This document shows, piece by piece, positions 24,917 through 28,804 of a stretch of 64,000 nt of DNA (the stretch's first letter is position 1; every line of letters begins with the position of its first letter). The notes beneath the pieces are model-generated. The model was not told the origin of the DNA and did not search any database. It saw only the letters and a program-made list of their open reading frames with translations. The stretch covers positions 2,379,501-2,443,500 of the forward strand of contig NZ_CP115463.1 in assembly GCF_027912495.1 (NCBI RefSeq). The letters are read 5' to 3'. The position numbers and the translations under genes were made by a program. This DNA is from Caulobacter sp. NIBR1757. GTDB taxonomy: Bacteria > Pseudomonadota > Alphaproteobacteria > Caulobacterales > Caulobacteraceae.

Positions 24917-26110
24917 GTGCTGAAGGGTCTCAAGGTCGTCGAACTGGCCACCTACATCGCTGCTCCCGGCGCCGCGGCGATCATGGCCGACTGGGGCGCC
25001 TCGGTGATCAAGATCGAGTCGCCCAAGGGCGACCCGATGCGGATGTTCTTCGACGCCTTCGACACCGGCGAGAACGACAACCCGGTCTTCGACATGGACA
25101 ACCGCGGCAAGCGCGGCGTCGTCCTCGACATCAGCAAGCCGGAAGGCCGCGAGGCCGCCCTGAAGCTCGTGCGCGAGGCCGACGTCTTCCTGACCAACAA
25201 CCGGCCGGGCTCCCTCAGCCGCTCGGGCTTCGACTACGAGAGCCTGAAGGCGGTAAACCCGCGCCTGATCTACGCCAGCCTCACCGGCTATGGCCTCGAA
25301 GGCCCCGACATCGACAAGGCCGGCATGGACGTGGCTAGCTTCTGGTCGCGCTCCGGCGTCGCCGCCATCACCGCCCCCAAGGGGGTCGAGCCCTTCCCGA
25401 TCCGCACGGCCATGGGCGACCACATCACCTCCATGGCCACGGTGTCGGCCATCCTGGCGGCGGTGTTCGAACGCCAGACCACCGGCGTCGGCCGCCTGGT
25501 GGAAACCAGCCTGCTGCGCACTGGCGTCTATTCGATCGGCTCGGACATGGCCATCCAGCTGCGCTTCGGCAAACTGGCCTCGACCCGGCCCCGTCACGCG
25601 GCGGTCAACCCGCTGGCCAACTTCTTCAAGACCTCCGACGGCCGCTGGATCTGCCTGCTGGTCCGCACCGGCGGCGTCGACTGGCCGCAGATCGCCAAGG
25701 CCGTCGGCCATTCCGAATGGGTCGAAGATGAGCGCTTCCTCAAGAATCGCGACCGTCGCCTCAACGGCGAGGCCCTGGTCACCCTGATGGACGAGGCCAT
25801 CGGCGCCATGACCCTGGAGGAGCTCACCGTCCGCTTCGACGCCGAGGACCTGACCTGGGCCCCGGTCCAGACCCCGCGCGAGGTCGTGCAGGACGAACAG
25901 GCCATCGCCGCCGGCTGCTTCGCCGAGATCCCGGACGGCAAGGGCGGCTTCAACAAGACCCCCGCCTCCCCGGCCCGCTTCCCGGGCGCCGAGGACGGAC
26001 CGCGCGGACCGGCCCCGAAACTGGGTGAACACACCGACGAGGTGCTGGCTGAGCTGGGCTATTCCGCTGACGCCATCGCCGCCCTCAGAGAGGCCGGAGC
26101 GGCGGCCTAG
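24917..26110 (+). CDS. Class III CoA-transferase (CaiB/BaiF family)
   Basis: Transfers CoA between carboxylic acids through an enzyme-bound aspartyl-CoA intermediate. 397 residues with the family N-terminus (LKGLKVVELATYIAAPGAA), WGASVIKIESPKGDP and NRGKRGVVLDI. The catalytic Asp is probably the one in GMDVASFWSRSG. The C-terminus has EVVQDEQAIAAGCFAEI and the G-E-H-T-DEVL tail. GTG start with GGGAGAG. The substrate is unknown; no linked acyl-CoA genes are nearby. Confidence 0.93.
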   Translation: MLKGLKVVELATYIAAPGAAAIMADWGASVIKIESPKGDPMRMFFDAFDTGENDNPVFDMDNRGKRGVVLDISKPEGREAALKLVREADVFLTNNRPGSLSRSGFDYESLKAVNPRLIYASLTGYGLEGPDIDKAGMDVASFWSRSGVAAITAPKGVEPFPIRTAMGDHITSMATVSAILAAVFERQTTGVGRLVETSLLRTGVYSIGSDMAIQLRFGKLASTRPRHAAVNPLANFFKTSDGRWICLLVRTGGVDWPQIAKAVGHSEWVEDERFLKNRDRRLNGEALVTLMDEAIGAMTLEELTVRFDAEDLTWAPVQTPREVVQDEQAIAAGCFAEIPDGKGGFNKTPASPARFPGAEDGPRGPAPKLGEHTDEVLAELGYSADAIAALREAGAAA

Positions 26111-26428: not shown

Positions 26429-26650
26429 TCAGTCTTCGGGCGGGATCCGCCTGGCCGGATCGGCGAGCGGCCGCTGGCTGACCTTGCGGGCCACCGTCTC
26501 GGTCGCCGCCGCCAGCCCGGGCTCGGCGAACAGGGTCTGGACCTTGACGGTCTTGTTCGGCTGACCGGCGATCAGCCTGGCCCGCGCATGATCGGCGGCC
26601 CGCTCGGCGGCGTTGACGGTGGTGACGGGGGCCAGTGGTTTGGAAGTCAT
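26429..26650 (-). CDS. Small hypothetical protein, partner of the Ntn-hydrolase-like gene
   Basis: 73-residue soluble protein (MTSKPLAPVTTVNAAERAA...), rich in Ala, Thr and charged residues, with a predicted helix over about 12-28. It begins three bases after the stop of the preceding proteasome-like gene, so it is almost certainly co-transcribed and perhaps a subunit or regulator. No known family recognised. Confidence 0.65.
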   Translation of the reverse strand: MTSKPLAPVTTVNAAERAADHARARLIAGQPNKTVKVQTLFAEPGLAAATETVARKVSQRPLADPARRIPPED

Positions 26651-26653
26651 CGC

Positions 26654-27910
26654 CTAAGGCTCCGTTGGGTGGCTGAGGACCGCGCCGGCCTTGGACAGAC
26701 GCAGGATCGAGAACGGACGCGCCACGGTCATGTTCCCCATCATCTCCGACTCGGTCAGCGGCAGCGAAAGGAGTTGTCCCGCCAGATCGCCCAATGGCCC
26801 GACGCTGGCGGTGCGGACCTTCTGGTCGAAGCTGGCCTCGATAGCCTCGCGCCAGGACAGGCGCGTCGAATAGAGCCCCAGCAGCGCCGACTGCATCACC
26901 GCCTGGTCGACCTGACCCCAGAACTCGGCGTCGCCGGTCTTGCCGGCGGCGGTCTTCAGCCGCTCGATCTCGCTCATGGTCAGGATGGCCACCCGGCGGA
27001 AGGCCTCGCCGGTGAACTCCTCGTCCGCCCCATAGAGGAACCGGTCCACCGCCCCGTTCTGCGCGAAGGAGCGCACCACCACCGGATTGTCCCGCCCGAC
27101 CCGCTCGGCGTCGGCGATGCGGTATTTCAGGAGGTCCCCGATCAGCCCCATGACATGCAGCTCGATATAGGCCGGCGACACCTCGTCGGCCCCGAAGCCG
27201 GCGATGACCACGCCGGTGTAGCGCGCCCCCGACGGCATCCAGCTGGTGATCAGCCCGGTGCGCACCGCCGCCGCCAGCCGCAGCCGGACATCCGGCCCGA
27301 TGACCTGGCCCTCGAAAAAGGCGTCCAGGGCCAGGCCGACGATGTTGTCGAGATTGTCGTCGATGATGGCCTTCAGCCGGGGCGTCTCGGTCCCGATCCG
27401 CTCGCGCTGCACATAGGAGAGTTCGCCATCGACCCAGGCCGCCTCGGTCCCGACCTCGTGCTCCAGCTGGCCGACCGCCTCGGTCAGCACCTCGTCCGGC
27501 CTCAGCGAGGGATGGGCCTCGCCGATCTGGTCGGCGGCGCGTCGGAAGTCGGCGATGGCCTGCACCGCGAAGATGCGGAACGTCATCACCCCGTCCCCGG
27601 CCTCGACCAGGTCGGAGTTGCAGAGGCCATTGAGGCGGGACATGAAGCCGGCGACGGTGTCGGCCAGCGTCGCTTCACCGCCCAGGCCCTGGCCGCGCAT
27701 GTGATCGACCACGGTGCTCCACGGACAGCCGCAGAACTCGGCCGAGGCGAAGATCATCATGCCGCTGGGCGTGCGGCCGCTAAGCACGAAGGTCTTCACC
27801 ACCCCCGTCTGGCTGATCTGGTAGGGCGGCTGGTCGGAGGTGATGGTGACGGCGCTGTCGGCGGCCATGGCCACCGCCGTCCGGTTCATGAGCAGAACTT
27901 CAACCGTCAT
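26654..27910 (-). CDS. Putative proteasome/HslV-like Ntn hydrolase, unknown family
   Basis: 418 residues with no family that I can name. The N-terminus reads M-TVEVLLMNRTAVAMAADS-AVTI. After Met removal (expected before Thr) Thr becomes residue 1 and the Asp of AADS falls at position 17, exactly the T1/D17 spacing of HslV and proteasome beta subunits. T21 also matches, and a Lys in GVVKTFVLS lies at 38 (33 in HslV, so a five-residue insertion). The next strand-helix unit (GMMIFASAEFCGCPW) resembles the beta-subunit pattern. The long helical C-terminus (about 200-418) is unlike any proteasome subunit. Fold assignment is inference. Confidence 0.6.
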   Translation of the reverse strand: MTVEVLLMNRTAVAMAADSAVTITSDQPPYQISQTGVVKTFVLSGRTPSGMMIFASAEFCGCPWSTVVDHMRGQGLGGEATLADTVAGFMSRLNGLCNSDLVEAGDGVMTFRIFAVQAIADFRRAADQIGEAHPSLRPDEVLTEAVGQLEHEVGTEAAWVDGELSYVQRERIGTETPRLKAIIDDNLDNIVGLALDAFFEGQVIGPDVRLRLAAAVRTGLITSWMPSGARYTGVVIAGFGADEVSPAYIELHVMGLIGDLLKYRIADAERVGRDNPVVVRSFAQNGAVDRFLYGADEEFTGEAFRRVAILTMSEIERLKTAAGKTGDAEFWGQVDQAVMQSALLGLYSTRLSWREAIEASFDQKVRTASVGPLGDLAGQLLSLPLTESEMMGNMTVARPFSILRLSKAGAVLSHPTEP

Positions 27911-27994: not shown

Positions 27995-28804
27995 TCAGCG
28001 CGATTCCGACAGGACGCGCAGCATCTCGGCGGAGAAGACCGACCCGGCCAAGCCCGATCCGCCGCCGCGCCCCTCGGCCCCTTGCGAGCCCCGCAGGATC
28101 AACGCCACCAGGGCGTCCTCCTCGGCCTGGCGATTGCCGCGGCCGGCGGCGTACTGCAGGAAGCCCTGGTCGCGCTCGCCCCCTTTGTCGCGCAGGGCCG
28201 AGGCCGCGCCGCCGGTGGCAGTCAGGTTGTTGTAGAGCTCGGCCACCGACACCGGGCGGCCGGCCTTGTAGAACAACGGGCGGTTGGCCGCCGCCGCATC
28301 GGGGAACAGGCCGGCGGCGCTGACGCCCGGCTGGGTCCGCGCCGCCTCGATCAGCCGCGCCGAGCCCTTCGGCCCCAGGAAGTGGGCGGCGTAGAGCTCA
28401 CCCGCCGTCGCCGAACGGCCGATGCGGCCGCGCAGATAGTCGGCATGGTCACTGGTCAGTTCGCCGGCCATCAGCGAGGCGGCGCGGGCGTCGTAGCGCA
28501 GGTTCATCACCGTCGCCCGCGCCTCGGGGCTGTTCACCCGGTAGCGGCCGTCGGTCCCTTGCGTGATCAGGTCGGCATAGCGGGCATAGCCGTACTTGCC
28601 GCCATGGCGCTTGAGGGTCGATAGCCAGGTCTGCTCGACGAACTGGAACAGGCCGGCGGCGGACGAGGTCTGGGCCTTGGCGTGGGGTCTCAGCCCGCTC
28701 TCCCGCTTGGCCGTGCCGAGCAGGAAGGAGAAGTCGACGCCCGTCGCCTCGGACGCCCGCTGGATCGCCGATTCGACGACCCCTCTGATGGACTCTACCG
28801 CCAT
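27995..28804 (-). CDS. Lytic transglycosylase (SLT domain)
   Basis: 269-residue peptidoglycan-cleaving protein. The SLT domain occupies about residues 20-160: catalytic Glu35 in TAKRESGLRP, then AQTSSAAGLFQFVEQTWL (the GLFQ motif) and the tyrosine-bearing GELYAAHFLG. No N-terminal signal peptide is visible, so it may be exported by a flagellar or pilus system, as are soluble transglycosylases of appendage assembly. A CtrA-type box lies 26-50 bp upstream, suggesting cell-cycle control. Confidence 0.88.
   Translation of the reverse strand: MAVESIRGVVESAIQRASEATGVDFSFLLGTAKRESGLRPHAKAQTSSAAGLFQFVEQTWLSTLKRHGGKYGYARYADLITQGTDGRYRVNSPEARATVMNLRYDARAASLMAGELTSDHADYLRGRIGRSATAGELYAAHFLGPKGSARLIEAARTQPGVSAAGLFPDAAAANRPLFYKAGRPVSVAELYNNLTATGGAASALRDKGGERDQGFLQYAAGRGNRQAEEDALVALILRGSQGAEGRGGGSGLAGSVFSAEMLRVLSESR

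Follow-up and report, generated by a model that had tools for sequence, protein, structure and literature searches.

A probable PMI-4-type proteasome homolog in Caulobacter and the small gene behind it that probably encodes its partner

In their survey, Fuchs, Alva and Lupas (2021; PMC8665760) described 22 proteasome homologs, with no clue to their functions from genomic context. One of them is the proteasome homolog with multiple insertions 4 (PMI-4), which carries long insertions after H1/H2 and between H3 and H4. Comprising 501 sequences at 90%, it is the largest PMI group and the only one that the survey lists in phages; besides these, it ranges over Proteobacteria, Firmicutes, Actinobacteria, Bacteroidetes, PVC, Cyanobacteria and Euryarchaeota, with HDY66466.1 as reference sequence. 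The survey assigns no function to PMI-4 and reports no genomic context that would suggest one. Connectase, a monomeric ligase, belongs to the same family, and insertions were argued to be capable of excluding ring assembly (PMC8665760).

The locus described here lies on a stretch of 64,000 nucleotides from Caulobacter sp. NIBR1757 (contig NZ_CP115463.1, positions 2,379,501 to 2,443,500), which is referred to as the window. An enzyme gene and a small open reading frame (ORF) are found there between two flanking genes:

27995..28804, minus strand: SLT-type lytic transglycosylase gene, one border of the insert, present in most of the genus
26654..27910, minus strand: proteasome-like Ntn hydrolase, very probably of PMI-4 type, 418 aa, start ATG, stop TAG; match to phrog_5990 (E 9.9e-27)
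26429..26650, minus strand: small putative partner ORF, 73 aa, in frame with the enzyme gene, whose TAG stop lies 3 bp ahead of it
24917..26110, plus strand: CoA-transferase-like gene, the other border of the insert

The CoA-transferase-like gene is named tentatively from its sequence. The original prediction had proposed a new proteasome/HslV-like Ntn hydrolase with its own small partner gene, and the coordinates of the 73-residue ORF coupled at 3 bp to the enzyme gene agree with it.

For the window enzyme, Pfam, NCBIfam and PADLOC returned no credible match, and a single-sequence search of the PDB gave weak matches only, elongation factor Ts being one of several and none of them a proteasome. 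The PHROGs family that it matches is of unknown function and was matched by 74 of the 74 aligned members. PF00227 (Proteasome) was found at E 1 or better in 9 of these 74 (best E 1.6e-4), the window enzyme not being among them. In a profile search of PDB sequences the Thermoplasma proteasome beta subunit ranked first (E 0.029); N-terminal Thr1 and Lys33 as well as the GG-x-(I/V)-DVAVI strand fall into register, in an alignment whose segments are all weak. The Thermoplasma lysine opposite Lys39 of the enzyme lies in a very weak HMMER segment and was counted as Lys33, which we assume it to be. In the same weak profile alignment, ETVGG of the enzyme is placed opposite SASGG of the beta subunit, whose serine we take to be the accessory Ser169; the enzyme has a valine at this position and thus its set of accessory residues may differ.

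The AlphaFold2 model computed on the 74-row alignment (mean pLDDT 91.3, pTM 0.89) shows a proteasome-like Ntn sandwich (alpha-beta-beta-alpha). Its N-terminal strands (4-8, 12-18, 21-24, 31-34, 40-44 and 49-56) are followed by helices 64-73 and 82-98, the later core is built from strands 232-238, 247-257, 260-270 and 278-283 and helices 285-293 and 297-321, and the C-terminal part comprises the inserted helix 328-367, helix 370-390 and strands 400-406 and 409-413. Neither an insertion between S3 and S4 nor a helix after the last strand is present in this monomer model. Two insertions are seen:

27218..27616, minus strand: residues 99-231, helical insertion after H1/H2 with predicted helices 106-132, 138-161, 177-199 and 206-220
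26804..26947, minus strand: insertion of residues 322-369 that separates H3 from H4, the predicted helix 328-367 lying between helices 297-321 and 370-390

Each of the best 50 rows listed by Foldseek against the PDB was a 20S proteasome subunit, the lowest E being 3.8e-4; the TM scores were low, which we attribute to the insertions of the enzyme. In VIA-align 2, Anbu occupied the top rows (Z 16.8, 16.2 and 16.1; best row 5nyw_R, 193 aligned, rmsd 3.1), followed by a 20S beta subunit at Z 15.7. All rows to rank 50 were either Anbu or 20S with Z of at least 14.6, Anbu exceeding many 20S rows by about 2 or less, and in most rows residue 2 of the model was aligned first, opposite residue 1. In BFVD just one match, an uncharacterised protein from a Gordonia phage, was better than E 1e-3. 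Judged from the model, the enzyme almost certainly has the fold of the proteasome-like Ntn superfamily, an assignment that is based on fold and conserved residues rather than on sequence identity. The Ntn sandwich that the original prediction had assumed is recovered by AlphaFold2, Foldseek and VIA-align alike.

The N-terminus of the enzyme reads MTVEVLLMNRTAVAMAADSAVT, and its ATG is the earliest ATG, GTG or TTG in the open frame, so that a propeptide is impossible in the window. Counted from the threonine of the Met-Thr start, Asp17, Thr21 (Thr22 of the window protein) and Lys38 stand where they had been proposed to stand. The three positions of main interest are:

27905..27907, minus strand: codon of Thr2, mature Thr1, the predicted N-terminal nucleophile
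27857..27859, minus strand: codon of Asp18 (the Asp of AADS), mature Asp17, invariant in 74 of 74 members at a position partly covered by the recruitment pattern
27794..27796, minus strand: codon of Lys39, mature Lys38, candidate counterpart of proteasome Lys33 by a weak HMMER alignment to the Thermoplasma beta subunit, invariant in 74 of 74 members

Variation of Thr1 among homologs would have spoken against such an enzyme. Directly after the start codon, 115 of 116 non-redundant relatives have threonine and one has serine. Among 160 loci, threonine follows the matched start in 158, the other two being the serine locus (L164) and a partial match (L216). The viral member in question (L164:207-1496) begins Met-Ser, not Met-Thr, and retains a hydroxyl nucleophile. 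Invariant in the 74 aligned members are N9, A16, D18, S19, A20, K39, P63, G233, G238, P246 and G294. Since many members were recruited by a pattern around AADSA, the conservation of D18, S19 and A20 is partly built in, a bias that does not affect Thr2 and Lys39. Methionine aminopeptidase would take off the Met and expose Thr1 without a propeptide. Thr1 could then be covalently acylated by its substrate, a protein or a peptide, and acyl transfer would involve Asp17 and the lysine.

The proteasome-like half of the proposed classification stands, given the Ntn fold with residues of the Thr1/Asp17/Lys33 type. A specific likeness to HslV does not, as the top structural rows are Anbu and 20S and hhalign found nothing. 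The same genome also encodes HslV in a separate gene (279265-279780); when the family profile was compared with this HslV, hhalign gave a probability of 1% and no N-terminal alignment, and an HslV relationship was rejected. Inspection by eye of the ORFs that the window carries at 24.5-30 kb showed no hslU, the recurring neighbour clusters contained none, and neither an alpha subunit gene nor an AAA+ gene was seen beside the enzyme gene. The family had also been proposed as new, which it is not, since it fits PMI-4 as characterised in the 2021 survey (PMC8665760). We consider the family very probably identical to PMI-4, judged by the features in the published description. The enzyme is a distant cousin of the cutting subunit of the proteasome, of a computationally described type; PMI-4 itself is already known, and the coupled gene of its putative partner is added here. 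A limited literature search found no later functional study of a PMI-4-type family.

Of 150 genomes, 29 have a relative, counting that of the window itself. Thirteen phage or satellite records contain one at E 3e-4 or better, the 4 further records listed being at E 8, and so do 10 plasmid records, the 9 further ones listed being Escherichia records at E 2. A pattern search was positive in 365 of 453 candidate stretches of genomic contigs and in 104 of 145 of viral contigs, and 80 of each were kept. The 80 genomic records listed include archaea, Firmicutes, Planctomycetes and Bacteroidetes, with no cyanobacterial relative among them.

The small ORF behind the enzyme gene could be a regulatory or chance ORF rather than a protein partner, the enzyme acting alone. 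We counted ORFs of 30-100 codons with a ribosome-binding-like site and a start between 30 nt before and 40 nt after the enzyme stop, in the 111 non-redundant loci whose downstream sequence was long enough; other ORFs of at least 200 residues in the same loci served as controls. Such an ORF follows the enzyme in 80 of the 111 loci, compared to 103 of 721 control genes (Fisher p 5e-35, with loci that are partly dependent and mechanical ORF calls). The excess is found in all three GC classes (22/27 vs 26/153, 35/50 vs 45/300 and 23/34 vs 30/253), in viral loci (43/48 vs 59/274) and in cellular and plasmid loci (36/61 vs 43/437). Furthermore, the small ORF is under purifying selection between the window and its closest relative G014 (dN/dS 0.215, compared to 0.133 for the enzyme and 0.12 for the flanking SLT gene). 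One phage partner belongs to a PHROG family of unknown function (phrog_26281, E 3.4e-41). In 15 Parvularculaceae loci (L031-L045), the gene directly behind the enzyme is kept in 13, the next most common neighbour in 8. However, no such ORF was found in 31 of the 111 loci, and there is little sequence conservation between partner groups: 27 groups from the 80 partners are singletons, and decoys enter some groups at the same threshold. On balance we consider a chance or regulatory ORF very unlikely, and the tiny neighbouring gene probably makes the partner protein of the enzyme. The positional excess and the purifying selection bear out the proposal that the enzyme has its own small partner gene, and a functional partnership of the two is, in our estimation, likely.

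The partner proteins have a median length of 58 and a median net charge of +4. The 19 members of their largest group come from archaea, phages and several phyla of bacteria. The motif (F/Y/W)F(P/N), searched as [FYW]F[PN], was counted post hoc in 16 of 80 partners compared to 1.2 in shuffles. Among nine partners scanned, Pfam gave no family at E 0.1 and PHROGs three weak matches (E 0.07 to 0.27). In an AlphaFold2 model of an in-frame phage enzyme-partner pair the partner is poorly defined, with blocks of pLDDT 51-72 and a tail below 50. The partner in Parvularculaceae is longer (about 147 aa) and ends with F-G-(I/L)-F in 8 of 15 loci, an ending that may resemble C-terminal docking tails, and one phage partner group mostly ends with F-(N/S/T)-W. 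Since the last residues are mixed outside these two sets, a shared C-terminal docking motif was dropped as a feature of the family.

At the level of the genus, the two genes behave as one insert. The SLT gene was found in 83 of 101 genomes, and in 59 of 61 of the window's genus; the enzyme was found in 8 of 75 genomes of this genus. In the window, G014 and G060 the enzyme and its partner lie between the SLT and the CoA-transferase-like gene; the G060 partner was missed by tblastn from the window partner, the ORF being nonetheless present. In relatives without the pair at this site (G017, G028 and G047), the two flanking genes nearly abut, their matched residues being separated by 40, 44 and 16 nt. 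Thus the two genes were gained or lost together, as one unit, in the window's genus. In G037 and G048 the pair is flanked by the SLT gene and the gene of a histidine kinase, and this stretch gave no CoA-transferase match; the G039 locus ends at a contig end. G028 holds another family member elsewhere in its genome, and one Caulobacteraceae genome has two enzyme copies (G503:C2:76362-77624 and G503:C23:338870-340105). Scans for promoters and terminators remained at chance level and Rfam gave no match.

The surroundings in phages and satellites were read in seven annotated records. One enzyme gene adjoins holin and lysozyme genes, another lies two genes ahead of such genes, in one prophage it is the last gene, after the lysis genes, and in one phage it is found within the head-to-tail region. 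In Streptococcus satellites it occupies the end of the element or a place close to it, with further genes behind it in one. Three of these satellite phages (L023, L063 and L064) have the enzyme directly behind a putative transcription regulator gene, the integrase of L023 being at the opposite end. Plasmid copies L061, L062 and L056 are shortened to open frames of 122, 251 and 357 residues and are probably decaying or frameshifted.

A toxin-antitoxin-like or abortive-infection module, with the hydrolase as toxin and the small protein as its inhibitor, would protect phages, satellites or plasmids from competitors. Carriage by such elements, in several phages near lysis genes or the element end, is consistent with it, and so is gain or loss of the pair as a two-gene unit. 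The same holds for its patchy occurrence: the family is present in 17 of 385 Alphaproteobacteria (one row marginal, E 5e-4) and in 11 of 398 genomes of the phylum Proteobacteria (one row marginal, E 9.8e-4). However, 57 of 60 Parvularculaceae genomes have the enzyme, and the copy within the head-to-tail region does not fit well either. PADLOC showed scattered defence-type genes among 150 neighbours, the most frequent in 2 of 150, with no control set. In addition, antitoxin genes usually lie upstream of the toxin gene, the reverse of the order found here. We regard such a module as unlikely. The 150 neighbours were taken from 168 selected ones at non-viral loci, with Parvularculaceae-type and some Caulobacterales loci left out, and besides the small ORF no Pfam family recurred in more than 3 of them. 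The pair may rather be accessory cargo in phages and satellites and a fixed cellular system in Parvularculaceae.

Some members lie beside genes of bacterial ubiquitin-like systems, and one might speculate that the enzyme is their degradation arm, processing proteins tagged by neighbouring multiubiquitin/ThiF machinery. On Rhizobium and Mesorhizobium plasmids, multiubiquitin and ThiF genes are found a few kb or less from the family member, in some cases together with DUF6527 and a Clp-type protease, and 4 of 116 non-redundant loci show the linkage, one of them in the window's genus (L046). The adjacent members are L054, L056 and L060 (Rhizobium plasmids), L055 and L138 (Mesorhizobium) and L046. 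However, in 385 alphaproteobacterial genomes Multi_ubiq was found in 11 and the enzyme family in 17, with both only in G153, on different contigs. Multiubiquitin relatives occur in 161 plasmid records, and of the 40 listed 4 also hold the enzyme family; near the window enzyme no multiubiquitin-type gene was seen among the ORFs, inspected by eye. A general link was rejected for the family as a whole, since linkage to Ub-like/E1 genes is not constant and fails at class level. We consider a role as degradation arm highly improbable.

With respect to activity, a connectase-like protein ligase has to be weighed, in which the Thr1 acyl-enzyme formed on a specific site is passed to another amine and the small protein is a dedicated substrate or acceptor. 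The enzyme has two insertions, and according to the 2021 account a monomeric ligase of the same family exists and insertions can exclude rings (PMC8665760). Moreover, a (D/N)-P-x-x-(hydrophobic)-G stretch recurs, by eye, after the aromatic-P motif in the largest partner group. However, this stretch is not invariant and is missing from the other partner groups, and the helical pair between S3 and S4 that gives connectase its specificity has no counterpart in the enzyme model. We consider a ligase quite unlikely and lean, by a little over even chances, towards a regulated hydrolase as the predicted activity.

Following the argument of PMC8665760, the insertions would speak against a classical stacked barrel or closed double ring, and the enzyme may be active as a monomer or in a small open assembly and have no AAA+ unfoldase of its own. 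The small, mostly basic, helix-plus-disordered partner would bind the enzyme and restrain or aim it, as a stoichiometric regulator or adaptor and less likely as a substrate. Taken together, we slightly favor a PMI-4-type Thr1 hydrolase that forms a two-part system together with the product of the small gene behind it. More tentatively, and with somewhat less than even confidence, PMI-4 enzymes may belong to an undescribed two-component type of threonine hydrolase, whose other half is an obligatory tiny protein that binds the enzyme via the aromatic-Pro motif and a helix. This would be a minimal proteasome-and-regulator pair that phages, satellites and plasmids carried through bacteria and archaea and that became fixed in Parvularculaceae as a cellular system. 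The small gene accompanying the largest PMI group offers a direct handle on function where the 2021 census lacked context (PMC8665760). Parvularculaceae with their near-universal enzyme are possible knockout hosts, and phages and satellites connect the pair with phage biology. Should the partner prove to regulate the enzyme, a proteasome-type active site would have a very small system controlling it.

Compared to known systems, HslV shares the Met-Thr start and the Ntn fold with the enzyme but differs in giving no hhalign match. The 20S beta subunit resembles it in fold, in the Thr1/Lys33 register, in the GG-x-(I/V)-DVAVI strand and through PF00227 in 9 of 74 members; sequence identity is, however, very low and the two insertions are found in the enzyme. 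Anbu provides the top structural rows, which are tied with other rows, and, according to PMC8665760, likewise lacks a propeptide. In contrast to Anbu, the enzyme has more than 150 extra residues in two insertions and no match at the sequence level. The Anbu split-ring assembly has a long H5 coiled coil; in our monomer model no helix follows the last strand. Connectase belongs to the same superfamily and is, as there described, a lone subunit with insertions, but its specificity-giving helical pair sits between S3 and S4, where the enzyme model has no insertion. PMI-3 has both insertions too, but is a small group that the survey does not list in phages (PMC8665760). PMI-4, as far as described there, agrees with the enzyme family in both insertions, in the lack of an S3/S4 insertion, in Thr1/Asp17/Lys33-type residues, in its occurrence in bacteria, euryarchaea and phages and in its size. 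What differs is the setting: the published account gives PMI-4 no informative context, whereas the enzyme gene studied here has a small gene coupled to it, forms a two-gene insert with it in the window's genus and is nearly fixed in Parvularculaceae.
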